DNA of 64,000 nt from Arthrobacter subterraneus. Lineage in GTDB: Bacteria > Actinomycetota > Actinomycetes > Actinomycetales > Micrococcaceae. Numbering within the stretch: the stretch's first letter is position 1; each line of letters opens with the position of its first letter. Location: contig NZ_FNDT01000002.1 of the NCBI RefSeq assembly GCF_900099735.1, positions 248,001-312,000 of the forward strand, read 5' to 3'. Shown piece after piece: positions 24,967 to 30,800 of this stretch. The translations under genes were made by a program, and so were the position numbers. The notes beneath the pieces are model-generated. The model saw nothing but the letters and a program-made list of their open reading frames with translations, did not search any database and was not told where the DNA came from.

Positions 24967-27465
24967 TCAGGCCGGAACGATGTTCACCAGTTTGGGCGCT
25001 CGGACAATGACCGTCCGGATCTCCCGACCCGCCAGCGTGCGCTGGATCTGGGCGGAGCCGAGCGCAAGCTCCCTGAGTGCATCCTCGGTGATGTCCGCCG
25101 GGACTTCCAGGCGGTCGCGCACCTTCCCCTGCACCTGCACGACGGCGGTGACCGTGTCCTGGACGAGCAGCGATTCATCCAGCGGCGGCCAGCCGGCTGC
25201 TGCAACCGAAGCGGGATGGCCCAGCCGCTCCCAGAGGTCCTCCGCGGTGTAGGGGGCGAAGAGGCTCAAAATAACCGCTGTCACTTCTGCCGCTTCACGG
25301 ACGGCAGGGTCCGCGCCGCCCGGTCCCGAGTCGATCGCCTTACGCGTGGCGTTGACGAGCTCCATGAGCTTGGCGATGACCACGTTGAACTTGTTGTTGT
25401 GCAGCAGTTCAGCGGCGTCGGCGAGGGTGCGGTGTGTCACCGAGCGCAGCGCACGGTCCCCCAGTGCCGGGTCGGTGCCCGGTGCCGAGGTGACGTCGGC
25501 GCCAAGCCGCCAGGCACGGGCCAGGAACTTCGCCGAACCCGACGGCGACACATCCGCCCAGTCGACGTCGTCCTCCGGCGGGGAGGCGAACACCATGGTG
25601 AGCCGGATGGCGTCGACCCCGTAACGGTCAAGCTGTTCGCCCAGGTTGACCCCGTTACCGAGGGATTTGCTCATGGCCTTGCCGCCGTTGAGCACCTGCC
25701 CCTGGTTCAGCAGCGCGGAGAAGGGTTCGGTGAAGTTGACCAGTCCGAGGTCAAAGAGCACTTTGGTGAAGAACCGGCTGTAGAGCAGGTGCAGGATGGC
25801 GTGCTCCACTCCGCCCACGTACTGGCCCACGGGCAGCCACTGGTTGACCTTGTCCGGATCGAACGGCGCGTCGTCGCACTGCGGGTCGGCAAACCGCAGG
25901 TAGTACCAGGATGAATCGACGAAGGTGTCCATGGTGTCGGTGTCCCGCGTCGCTGGTCCGGAGCACTGCGGGCACTGTACGTTGACCCACTCGGTTGCCG
26001 CAGCGAGCGGCGAGGTTCCCTTGGGCGCGAGGTCCTCCCCGCGCAGATCGCTCGGGAGCCGCACCGGAAGCTGGTCATCGGGTACCGGCACCTCACCGCA
26101 GGCACCGCAGTGGATGATGGGGATGGGTGTGCCCCAGAAACGCTGCCGGGACAGGAGCCAGTCCCTCAGTCGGTAGTTGACCGTGCGCTCACCCGTGCCC
26201 TGGGCCGCGACCAGTTCGATGGCACGCTGGATGGCCGCTTCCTTGGTCAGGCCGTTCAGCTCACCGGAGTTGACCAGGGTGCCTTCACCGATGGTCGCCT
26301 TGCCGGAGAACGCAGGGTCCTCTTCGCCGGTATCCACCACCATGCGCACGGGGAGCTCGAAGGCGCGTGCGAAGTCAAGGTCCCGCTGGTCGTGGGCGGG
26401 AACCGCCATGATGGCGCCGGTGCCGTAGTCGGCGAGCACGTAGTCGGCTGCCCAGACCGGCAGCTTTTCGCCGTTCAGCGGGTTCACCGCGTAACGGCCG
26501 GTGAAGACGCCCGTCTTTTCCCGTTCGGTGGACTGCCGTTCGATATCGCTCAGCGCGTTCACGCTCTCGCGGTAGCGGTTGAGCGCGGGCGCAAGCTCGC
26601 CAGTCACCAGCTCCGCGGCGAGGTCCGCGTCTGCGGCAACGACGAAGAAGGTGGCTCCGTGGAGGGTGTCAGGCCTCGTGGTGAAGACCGTGACGTCGCG
26701 GGCAGGCAGGTCATCATCGGCTTCGATGGTGAAAGTTACATGGGCGCCCTCTGACCGGCCGATCCAGTTCCGCTGCATCGCCAGCACCCGTTCAGGCCAG
26801 TGACCGGTCAGCGGCTCCATGTCCTCGAGCAGCCGGTCGGCGTAGTCAGTGATACGGAAATACCACTGATTGAGGCTCTTCTTGGTGACCGGGCTGCCGC
26901 ACCGCTCACACGCGCCGTTGACTACCTGCTCATTGGCGAGCACGGTCTGGTCCCGCGGGCACCAGTTGACCGGATGGTCCTTGCGGTAGGCGAGCCCCTT
27001 CTCGAAGAACCGCAGGAACAGCCACTGCGTCCACCGGTAGTAGTCGGGATCCGAGGTGTGCAGCCGCCTGGACCAGTCCGCGCTGATGGCGTAGCGCTTG
27101 AAGGACGCCGCCTGCGTGTCGATATTCGCGTAGGTCCACTCGCTCGGATGCGCGTTGTGCTTGATGGCGGCGTTTTCCGCCGGCAGGCCGAAGGAGTCCC
27201 AGCCGATCGGGTGAAGAACGTCGTAGCCGAGCTGCCGCCAGTAGCGGGCGACGACGTCGCCCATTGCGAAGGCTTCGGCGTGACCCATGTGAAGGTCCCC
27301 GGATGGGTAGGGAAACATGTCCAGCACGTAGCGGCGTTCCCTGCTGCCGTCGTCGACCGGGGTGAAGGTGTTGAGCTGTTCCCAGACCGGAAGCCATTTG
27401 GCTTCGATATCCGCGAAACTGTAGGTACCGGCGTCCGACTCTTCGGCCGTGGGTTTCATGCTCAC
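24967..27465 (-). CDS. leuS: Leucyl-tRNA synthetase
   Basis: It charges tRNA-Leu with leucine and edits mischarged amino acids. From GTG 27465 the protein has 832 residues, a usual length. The class I HIGH box is HMGH at 59-62 in [11 protein letters not shown], and the second signature reads AMSKS at 597-601. The CP1 editing domain contains TTRPDTLHG, and the [14 protein letters not shown] and SQRFWGTP motifs are present. The frame stays open upstream through the leader terminator, so longer starts are unlikely; ATG 27459 is two codons downstream of the chosen GTG. A leucine-codon leader peptide and terminator precede it. Confidence 0.97.
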
Positions 27466-27561
27466 TGTTACTTGCCCTGTCTGTTGATCACTGGTGACCG
27501 TCTTCAAATTCGCCGGACCGCTCCCGGTGGTGTGCCTGGACGCCGAACGGGACCCGGACAT

Positions 27562-27589
27562 ACAAAAGCCCCTCGACACTTCGAGGGGC
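27562..27589 (-). terminator. Intrinsic terminator in the leuS leader (attenuator)
   Basis: On the minus strand GCCCCTCG, a six-base loop and CGAGGGGC form a perfect eight-bp stem followed directly by TTTTGT. It lies 20 bases after the leader peptide stop and about 100 bases before leuS. A U-tailed terminator between leader peptide and gene is the defining part of an attenuator. I do not see a clean antiterminator by eye. Confidence 0.8.
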
Positions 27590-27591
27590 GG

Positions 27592-27608
27592 CCGCGCGGA
27601 ATGCGCGG
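27592..27608 (-). promoter_or_regulatory. Leader hairpin immediately after the leuS leader stop codon
   Basis: CCGCGC-ATTCC-GCGCGG (minus strand) forms a six-bp stem starting at the first base after the leader TAG and ending two bases before the terminator arm. It could be the pause or anti-antiterminator hairpin. The leader codons TTC GCG C can alternatively pair with GCGCG of this element. Confidence 0.45.
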
Positions 27609-27635
27609 CTAGATAAGGAGCAGTTGCGCGAACAT
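27609..27635 (-). CDS. leuS leader peptide MFAQLLLI
   Basis: An eight-codon ORF, ATG TTC GCG CAA CTG CTC CTT ATC TAG, with three consecutive Leu codons. AAGG lies seven bases before the ATG. The overlapping hexamer TAAGGT ends exactly six bases before it, so translation could be leaderless or Shine-Dalgarno-driven. The stop is followed by a hairpin and then an intrinsic terminator. The arrangement supports leucine-responsive attenuation of leuS; translation of the peptide is inferred. Confidence 0.75.
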
Positions 27636-27762
27636 GCTTTTACCTTAGCGCAGTTTGGTCTCCGGGGCGTTTTCGAAGCGTTACCATATTTCCATTGGAC
27701 TCTTTTATCTGTTATTGAGCCCAGGACGCCGAGGCGGAATGCGCCCGCGGCTGATCGGCCAG

Positions 27763-27823: not shown

Positions 27824-30800
27824 ATGACACAGACAATTCCTACCGCAGATCCCTCACCGCTGGCCCTTGGCGATGACGCAGTCGCGCTGGTGCGCCGGTG
27901 GCTGCACCTGGATGAGGCACGCACCGCGGCACAGCGGCCCGCAGCCACCGTGAGCTCGCGTGGCTCCAAGTCAGCGCAGCTCCTCGCTGAGGTCCTCAAG
28001 GACCAGAACGGACTGGACTTCACGATCGGATTCGTGGACCGGGTGATCCGCCCCGAAGACCCGTCCGTCGCTGCACGGAACCTCGCCCGCCTCGCACGGA
28101 AGGCGCCGTCGTTCCTGCCCTGGTATATGAAGGGAGCTGTGCGCCTGGGAGGGGTCATGGCACCGGCCCTTCCCCGGGTGGTTGTGCCCGTTGCGCAGCG
28201 GGTGCTGCGCGAGATGGTGGGCCATCTGATCGTTGACGCCCGTCCCTCCCACCTTGGCAGGTCGATCGCCGCCCTGCGCGGGGAGGGTGTCCGCCTCAAT
28301 ATCAACCTTCTCGGTGAAGCAGTGCTGGGCGACCGGGAGGCGGATGCGCGGCTTACCGGAACCCGGGAACTGCTCGCGCGCGACGACGTCGACTATGTCT
28401 CCATCAAGGTCTCTTCGGTTGTGAGTACGCTCAACCTCTGGGATTTCGAGGGGACCGTCGAGCGGGTGGCCGAACGGCTGCTGCCGCTGTACCGGCTGGC
28501 GGCGTCCTCACCGGCTCCGAAGTTCATCAACCTGGACATGGAGGAGTACCACGACCTCGATCTGACGGTGGCGGTGTTCAAGCGCATCCTGGAGACGCCG
28601 GATCTGCGCAACCTAGAGGCGGGAATCGTGCTCCAGGCCTACCTGCCGGATGCGCTCGCCGTCCTCCAGGATCTGACCGCGTGGGCCCAGGAGCGGCGTG
28701 CGGCCGGCGGTTCCGCCATCAAGGTGCGCCTGGTCAAGGGCGCCAACCTGGCCATGGAACTGGTGGATGCCGCCGTCCACAATTGGGAGCCCGCCACCCT
28801 TCCCAGCAAGCAGGCGACGGACACCAACTACAAGCGCTGCCTGGACTGGGCCCTGCGGCCCGAGAACGCGGACGCGGTCCGGTTGGGCGTGGCCGGGCAC
28901 AACCTGTTCGATATTGCCCTTGCGCGTACCCTGTCCGTTGCCCGCGGTGTCGAGGACCGGATCGAGTTCGAGATGCTGCTCGGCATGGCCGAAGACCAGG
29001 CCGCCGAGGTGCGCAAGGATGTCGGGTCGCTGCTGCTGTACACCCCGGTGGTGAAGCCCGCGCAGTTCGACGTCGCCATCAGCTACCTGATTCGCCGCCT
29101 TGAGGAGAACGCGAGCCAGGAAAATTTCATGAGTGCTGTCTTTGAACTGACGAAGAACAGTGAACTGTTCGAGCGCGAGAAGGACCGTTTCCTGGCCTCG
29201 CTCGCGGAGCTTGACTCCACGGTTCCAGAGCCCAACCGGTCACAGGCTCCGGACCGCTTCACCGCGACCGGGCCGGGGAAATTCCACAACCAGTCCGATT
29301 CCGACCCCTCGCTACCTGCTATCCGGGCGTGGGCCGCCGGCATCCTCGACCGGGTTCCCGGTTCCACCCTGGGTGTTTCCCTGGTCGAGTCCTCCCGGCT
29401 CGATGCGGAGGGTGAGGTGGATGCCGCCGTCCGGTCGGCACGCGCAGCACAGCGGGACTGGTCTTCCCGGACCGGTGCGGAGCGGGCGGTGGTGCTCCGC
29501 GCTGCGGCTGCCCAGCTTGCTGCCCGCCGGGGTGACCTCGTGGAGGTCTCGGCAAGCGAAACCGGGAAGACCATCGCGGAGTCCGACCCGGAGATTTCGG
29601 AGGCGATCGACTTCGCCAACTACTACGCATTTCTCGCCGAAGAGCTGGACCAGGTGGAGGGTGCACGCTTTGTTCCTGCCGCGCTGACCGTGGCCACCCC
29701 GCCGTGGAACTTCCCCGTTGCCATTGCGGCCGGATCCGTCCTCGCTCCACTGGCCGCCGGAAGCGCCGTGATCCTGAAACCGGCACCCCAGGCCAAGCGG
29801 TGCGCCGCCGTCATGGTTCAGGCCCTGTGGGACGCCGGCATCCCCCGCGACGTGCTGGTATTTGCCGACGTCGAAGAGGGACCCGTCGGCCAGCACCTGA
29901 TTTCCCACCCGGACGTGGACCGGGTCATCCTGACCGGCGCATATGACACCGCCAGGCTCTTCCGCTCCTGGCGCAGGGACCTGCCGCTGCTGGCCGAGAC
30001 GAGCGGTAAAAATTCGCTGATCGTTACGCCGAGCTCGGACCTGGACCTTGCCGCCGCCGACGTCGTCAGATCGGCTTTCGGGCATGCCGGCCAGAAGTGC
30101 TCCGCTGCATCGCTGGCTATCCTGGTGGGCTCTGCGGGCACCTCCGCCCGCTTCCGCAACCAGCTCATCGACGCCGCGGCTTCCCTGAAGGTCGGGTACC
30201 CGGAAGACCCTGAGACCGAGATGGGTCCGATCATTGAGCCGGCCGCCGGCAAGCTCAAGGACGCCCTCACCACCCTCGGAGAGGGTGAATCATGGCTGGT
30301 CGAGCCGAAACAGCTCGACGACACCGGACGGCTCTGGAGCCCCGGCGTACGGACCGGGGTCCGGCCGGGCAGCTACTTCCATCTCACGGAATTCTTCGGC
30401 CCGGTGCTGGGGATCATGCACGCCGAGTCGCTCGAACAGGCCATCGAGTGGCAGAACGCCAGCGCCTACGGACTCACCGGCGGCATCCACTCGATGGACC
30501 CGGACGAGGTGTCGCAGTGGCTCGACTCGGTGGAGGCCGGAAACCTCTACGTCAACCGCGGAATCACCGGAGCGATCGTCCGGCGGCAGCCGTTCGGCGG
30601 TTGGAAGCGCTCGGCGGTCGGGCCCGGCGCCAAGGCGGGTGGACCGAACTACCTCATCCATCTCGGCAGCTGGGAGCGTGAGGAACTGCACGCCGGGAAC
30701 GTCCACGCCCCGCTGAACGATTCCGTCCGCCGCCTGCTTCATGCAGCGGAGGTGCCGGACGGAGACCGGGGCTTCCTTGCCCGATCGGCAGCTGACGACC

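Follow-up and report, generated by a model that had tools for sequence, protein, structure and literature searches.

How leuS, the gene for leucyl-tRNA synthetase, is controlled in Arthrobacter subterraneus is a question raised by the short structured leader that precedes it. In the window (the whole 64,000-nt stretch of contig NZ_FNDT01000002.1 that was analysed), this leader element occupies positions 27647-27562 of the - strand, 5' of leuS, and a gap of ~100 nt separates its terminator hairpin from the gene. It is very likely a leucine leader-peptide attenuator of leuS, with the following parts.

27642..27647, - strand: -10 box TAAGGT, 6 nt 5' of the leader ATG, from the sequence
27609..27635, - strand: leader ORF ATG TTC GCG CAA CTG CTC CTT ATC TAG, encoding MFAQLLLI and a stop, from the sequence
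27615..27623, - strand: Leu codons CTG CTC CTT of the leader, from the sequence
27591..27609, - strand: hairpin P1, GCCGCGC-AUUCC-GCGCGGC, 7 bp, from covarying pairs, with pairing seen in divergent members too
27568..27589, - strand: terminator hairpin T, GCCCCUCGA-AGUG-UCGAGGGGC, 9 bp, from terminator scan, covariation and fold
27562..27567, - strand: U-rich tract TTTTGT, from the sequence
24967..27465, - strand: leuS, leucyl-tRNA synthetase, with the GTG start taken (NCBIfam TIGR00396 leuS_bact, 961 bits)

The 5' end of P1 is the last base of the leader stop codon, and a single spacer nucleotide separates P1 from T. A first-pass annotation had placed a leader ORF with a Leu run, a hairpin at its stop codon and a terminator before leuS, and these parts and their coordinates were correct; it was also right about T as a terminator with a TTTTGT tail, but the stem that it gave as 8 bp has 9. 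On the opposite strand a long ORF starts at 27824 and heads away from leuS, which means that T does not mark the 3' end of a gene lying farther upstream on the - strand. An in-frame ATG at 27561, directly 3' of the U-rich tract, would give LeuS an N-terminal extension.

The 68-nt leader folded at -33.6 kcal/mol, compared with -22.9 ± 2.9 for shuffled sequences (z -3.7; 0/200 shuffles as good). A generic terminator scan gave 2 hits, no significant excess over the 1.5 expected from shuffled sequence, and the generic scan for sigma-70 promoters returned none with both hexamers, a -35 match being absent before the leader. It is conservation in the genus that was decisive in showing the element to be non-random. 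A covariance model trained on 28 sequences (that of the window plus 27 obtained by pattern matching) matched next to leuS in 36/38 genomes of the genus at E ≤ 5.5e-13; most of these matches are independent of the model, while the window's own E-value of 7e-17, as that of a training member, is not. The two exceptions are a genome masked by N (G015) and one cut by a contig end (G034). On genus conservation, linkage to leuS and covariation, a chance origin was rejected, the non-significance of the bare terminator scan notwithstanding.

The model matched 211/393 genomes of the class at E ≤ 1e-3. Matches at E < 1e-7 carried 22 of 43 family labels, and for 21 of these 22 at least one fetched element lay before leuS. 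In a sample of the phylum, 18/296 genomes had model matches at 1e-6, and four of these 18 belong to other classes. The position directly upstream of leuS, seen in the window, was found in 194 of 200 aligned elements, which had a LeuS N-terminus at most 400 nt downstream on the same strand. Among the remaining six (L212, L262, L243, L242, L245 and L263), L212 precedes a second leuS with a partly masked start, and L262 (by NCBIfam) and L243 (by reading of the protein) precede acetolactate synthase genes.

The 200 matches represent 184 distinct sequences, with exact duplicates alone merged and close relatives counted repeatedly, notably those of one large genus (f24 g35). Nine were left out to give 175: L242, L243, L245, L262 and L263 as ilvB-like or not linked to leuS, L270 as masked, L244 as cut, and L070 and L076 for poor terminators. 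Removal of one sequence with N gave 174, and removal of L246, without P1 by the criterion used, gave 173. In the alignment step 15/88 sources had no match. Twenty-seven of 29 named loci matched, but these were picked by eye or by pattern from 80 and provide no prevalence figure; the two without a model match were L011 and L023. Upstream of leuS in L011 (Glutamicibacter sp. JC586), a degenerate leader encoding MNSQHNLA and a stop, with one Leu codon (CTA), is visible by eye together with a hairpin and a terminator. The window itself holds a third own-genome match to the model, at 1577-1638 on the - strand, which is very weak (E 0.16) and probably due to chance.

The leader peptide was conserved together with its promoter. 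TAnnnT precedes the start codon in 174/174 elements (by 6 nt in 140 and 7 nt in 34), in a set selected by a model that includes the -10 box. As a spacing of 6-7 nt fits leaderless transcripts, the transcript probably begins at the leader AUG. Leaders start with ATG (128) or GTG (46; n = 174), and 171/174 contain at least two consecutive Leu codons; by sequence, then, the leader peptide has a Leu run and begins at, or close to, the 5' end. For the last Leu codon, CTT is used in 164/174 and CTC in 10/174, never CTG, while the penultimate one is CTC in 81, CTG in 50 and CTT in 40. The ilvB-like leaders L243 and L245 carry GTT at the place of the last regulatory codon. The stop codon lies at the P1 base (LLLx and stop) or within P1 (LLLxxPR and stop, and longer), and is 5' of the P1 3' arm in 173/173.

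Both hairpins covary. In alignment A3 (99 sequences) 97.9% of cells were paired, compared with 91.1% after shuffling and 47-67% when columns were slid by 1-3, and two-sided changes occurred in 11/16 pairs, A3 being an alignment fitted to the covariance model. In the 28 starting sequences 9/16 pairs had such changes. The first-pass annotation had named covariance analysis and conservation of the leader ORF as its checks, and both came out in its favour. P1 ranges from 19 to 68 nt (36.6 ± 11.6 nt), and the spacers around it vary little: 4-6 nt from the last Leu codon to P1 in 159/173, and a gap of 0 or 1 nt between P1 and T in 146/173, with an overlap of 1-2 nt in 17/173. In the U-rich tract, positions 3-5 after the G run are thymine in 148-165/174, and an intrinsic terminator before leuS is predicted from sequence and fold.

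The effect of ribosome position on the RNA was modelled in 174 leaders by masking a footprint around the A-site codon that reached 18 nt in the 5' direction and 9, 10 or 12 nt in the 3' direction, with folding at equilibrium rather than co-transcriptional. With footprints of 9-10 nt, P1 pairing was 0.98 for an A site two codons upstream of the last Leu codon and 0.58-0.78 for one a single codon upstream; it was 0.00-0.15 once the last Leu codon itself was in the A site, and 0.00 past it. A 12-nt footprint moved the change one codon earlier. T pairing was ~0.98-0.99 in every masked state (174 sequences), although in single sequences it went down to 0.00-0.19, probably because the stem caller picked another stem. 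The Leu run thus coincides exactly with the codons at which the position of the ribosome determines pairing of P1, and of P1 alone. As in trp-type leaders, the regulatory codons are placed so that stalling changes RNA structure, and the structure that switches is P1.

The defining feature of a classical attenuator is mutually exclusive pairing of terminator and antiterminator. 'Classical attenuator architecture' was the first-pass description of this locus, with the remark that no antiterminator was evident by eye; the comparative tests upheld the remark, finding no base-pair competition, and did not support the description as worded. A helix scan of all column pairs revealed no long covarying helix other than P1 and T, the shorter runs being rich in G-U or shifted copies. 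One exception was a 4-bp pairing of the P1 5' base with the T end (AGCC:GGYU; two-sided changes in 17 cells of A3 and 3 of A2), which may be a minor competitor of T. Upstream complementarity to the T 5' arm was depleted (5.3 observed, 9.7 in shuffles preserving composition alone; 30/174 above their own shuffles). P1 as a classical antiterminator extending into T was rejected since the extension gave 0 pairs in 169/173 and one pair in 4/173; with 2-nt bulges allowed, a 3-pair run appeared in 11 of the 173. Helix scan, complementarity, extension and masking all failed to reveal a trp-type antiterminator sharing bases with T.

It is unlikely, therefore, that the locus is a classical attenuator with an antiterminator that was missed, in which P1, the Leu codons or the T arms would engage in some other pairing, or in a tertiary contact, at the expense of T. 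A conserved long alternative helix and shared pairs at the P1/T boundary are both absent, complementarity to the T 5' arm is depleted, and T stays at ~0.98 in all masked states. Published descriptions do point the other way: the available text on two Streptomyces leuS leaders speaks of 'antiterminator and terminator hairpins' (PMC1262725), and related ilvB attenuators are described, in the accessible parts of three papers, as having overlapping hairpins (PMC11857589, PMC10272879, PMC13236596). Complementarity of the Leu codons to the T 3' arm is slightly raised as well (13.9, compared with 12.3 in shuffles preserving composition alone; 135/174 above). As a regulatory pairing this was rejected, since pyrimidine-rich Leu codons predict it and a stalled ribosome would block it, which is the wrong direction.

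The best explanation, and a probable one, is that leuS is coupled to the supply of leucyl-tRNA by ribosome-mediated transcription attenuation. As to how it works, our best guess, at close to even chances, is a ribosome-bridged mechanism with no exchange of base pairs. Switching through ribosome position was already hinted at in the first-pass annotation and is the reading that we favour. Transcription would start at the leader AUG. When leucyl-tRNA is plentiful the ribosome would reach the stop codon, 5' of the P1 3' arm, and melt P1; T would close and RNA polymerase would terminate, a ribosome past the Leu codons staying, or dropping off, farther from T. When leucyl-tRNA is short the ribosome would stall at the first or second Leu codon and P1 would remain folded, holding it ~11 nt (folded distance) from T. 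The block formed by ribosome and P1 at the RNA exit of the polymerase would prevent T from closing, and leuS would be transcribed. RNA base-pair exchange would have no part in this. Sequence and computation show the parts with their conservation and covariation, the switching of P1 by ribosome position, the lack of antiterminator pairing and the constant folded distance. We infer that T terminates in vivo, that leuS responds to leucine and in which direction, and that the block is steric.

P1 is proposed to act as a strut because the first Leu codon and T are a constant folded distance apart and because nearby ribosomes repress terminators in E. coli. With P1 folded this distance is 10.9 ± 1.8 nt (47.5 ± 12.2 nt unfolded), while from the stop codon to T with P1 melted it is 29.1 ± 9.9 nt, and at least 27 nt in 76/173. 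In E. coli, according to the available text of one study, the efficiency of a terminator drops from ~90% to < 10% when a ribosome occupies a stop codon 5 nt away, and repression ends beyond a ribosome distance of ~27-30 nt (PMC4824070). By these figures, which may not apply here, a ribosome at the leader stop could still repress T, and the contrast in the window is small (12 nt from ribosome to T when stalled, 19 nt at the stop). The overlap of P1 and T by 1-2 nt in 17/173 also counts against a strut, and an isolated P1 beside T might instead stabilise T by stacking.

P1 could alternatively be a polymerase pause hairpin and nothing else, like the trp 1:2 hairpin, synchronising ribosome and polymerase so that timing regulates, which we consider rather improbable. 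Hairpin pauses occur at 10-12 nt after the hairpin, and a pyrimidine-G step is present 10-12 nt after P1 in 158/173; however, the count of such steps is also high at 13-15 nt and comes without a control comparison, and timing alone leaves unexplained how T is prevented. A pause role for P1 is compatible with its acting as a strut.

It is quite improbable that T acts mainly on translation, with GAGGGG in its 3' arm as a hidden ribosome-binding site serving a start codon located 7 nt 3' of it. ATG or GTG is present exactly 7 nt 3' of T's G run in 114/174 (TTG in 7) and the window's ATG is in frame with leuS, but the start is lost in 29/174 (TTT, ATT), conservation does not extend to the frame behind it and the U tract favours termination. 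A constitutive T with a separate downstream promoter for leuS is very improbable despite the ~100 nt between them, as a promoter at fixed spacing precedes the leader, a scan between T and leuS gave no sigma-70 match and, in the available text, the leuS transcript of S. lividans starts at the leader (PMC8079986).

The element precedes two types of LeuS, whose N-terminal 200 residues are 35.7% identical. For 144 of the 194 leuS-linked elements the downstream protein is nearest to the window's type, and for 50 it is nearest to the other. Genome G225 (L176, L271) has two different leuS genes, one of each type, and both are preceded by an element of their own. We tentatively suggest, at somewhat less than even chances, that P1, between the Leu codons and T, brings the stalled ribosome against the polymerase, that the ribosome itself serves as the antiterminator, and that this is the usual control of leuS in much of the class, retained across replacement of the LeuS type. 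If this is right, it offers a testable mechanism of attenuation that needs no competing hairpins, and accounts for the variable length of P1 between flanking spacers that are nearly constant. An essential synthetase gene would be tuned by the supply of its own product in many actinobacterial families, and a control element would outlive the type of enzyme that it controls. If the steric step is wrong, there is still a broad, covariation-backed account of a known attenuator for which Rfam has no matching family.

The closest known systems are the leuS attenuators of Streptomyces, which have the same gene, a leaderless Leu-run leader, a hairpin and an intrinsic terminator. For S. avermitilis and S. 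coelicolor, according to the available text, Seliverstov et al. (2005) predicted such attenuators and gave them antiterminator and terminator hairpins (PMC1262725), and for S. lividans TK24 the accessible part of a later paper describes the leaderless, TSS-mapped peptide LeuL2, MRAVRLLLSEPR, with a hairpin and U stretch before leuS (PMC8079986). Exactly this peptide, MRAVRLLLSEPR, is encoded by L161, L166, L168-L170 and others, which match the same model; the window element therefore belongs to the known Streptomyces kind. It differs in that its stop is at the P1 base (LLLx and stop) while that of Streptomyces is inside P1, and in that Streptomyces has the second LeuS type. Moreover, the published text names one hairpin an antiterminator, whereas here no competition for T was found. 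Among open-licence papers, our search found none that describes the leuS element for Micrococcaceae, nor any that reports the lack of an antiterminator. What the present analysis adds is the wide spread, the presence before two LeuS types and the absence of a base-pairing antiterminator.

The ilvB/ilvBNC attenuators of Actinobacteria are similar in having a leaderless Leu/Val/Ile leader, a P1-like hairpin and a terminator. In the same genome as the window, an ilvB leader encoding MQLVSVVLVTKRVA and a stop, followed by a hairpin and terminator before the acetolactate synthase gene ilvB, matched the leuS model weakly (E 0.002; G000:C38:128900-129045, L262:2401-2546, - strand). Weak ilvB-like matches to the model recur across most genomes of the genus list. 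In C. glutamicum ilvBNC, a boundary GCC is common to both hairpins, as stated in the available text (PMC11857589). In the leuS elements, by contrast, no boundary trinucleotide pairing in both hairpins was found.

In pyrBI-type attenuation it is the ribosome, not an antiterminator, that keeps the terminator hairpin from forming. The terminator-proximal repression described for E. coli, in the accessible text, is of this type, a nearby ribosome preventing the terminator hairpin without an antiterminator (PMC4824070). In those cases translation runs up to the terminator or into it, whereas here the ribosome would stall upstream and be bridged to T by P1, and the logic of substrate supply would be opposite.

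T-box leaders likewise control aminoacyl-tRNA synthetase genes by tRNA charging, but here the sensor is a translated peptide. A search of Rfam gave no match in the window or at the leaders of six other loci (one tRNA was found elsewhere in L161), and a T-box was rejected as no T-box covariance model matched, in agreement with the first-pass view of a Leu leader peptide and intrinsic terminator in place of a T-box. In the LEU element of leuA, the Leu codons pair with the leuA Shine-Dalgarno box in a pseudoknot; here the gene is leuS, not leuA, and the Leu codons are weakly complementary to the G-rich 3' arm of T.
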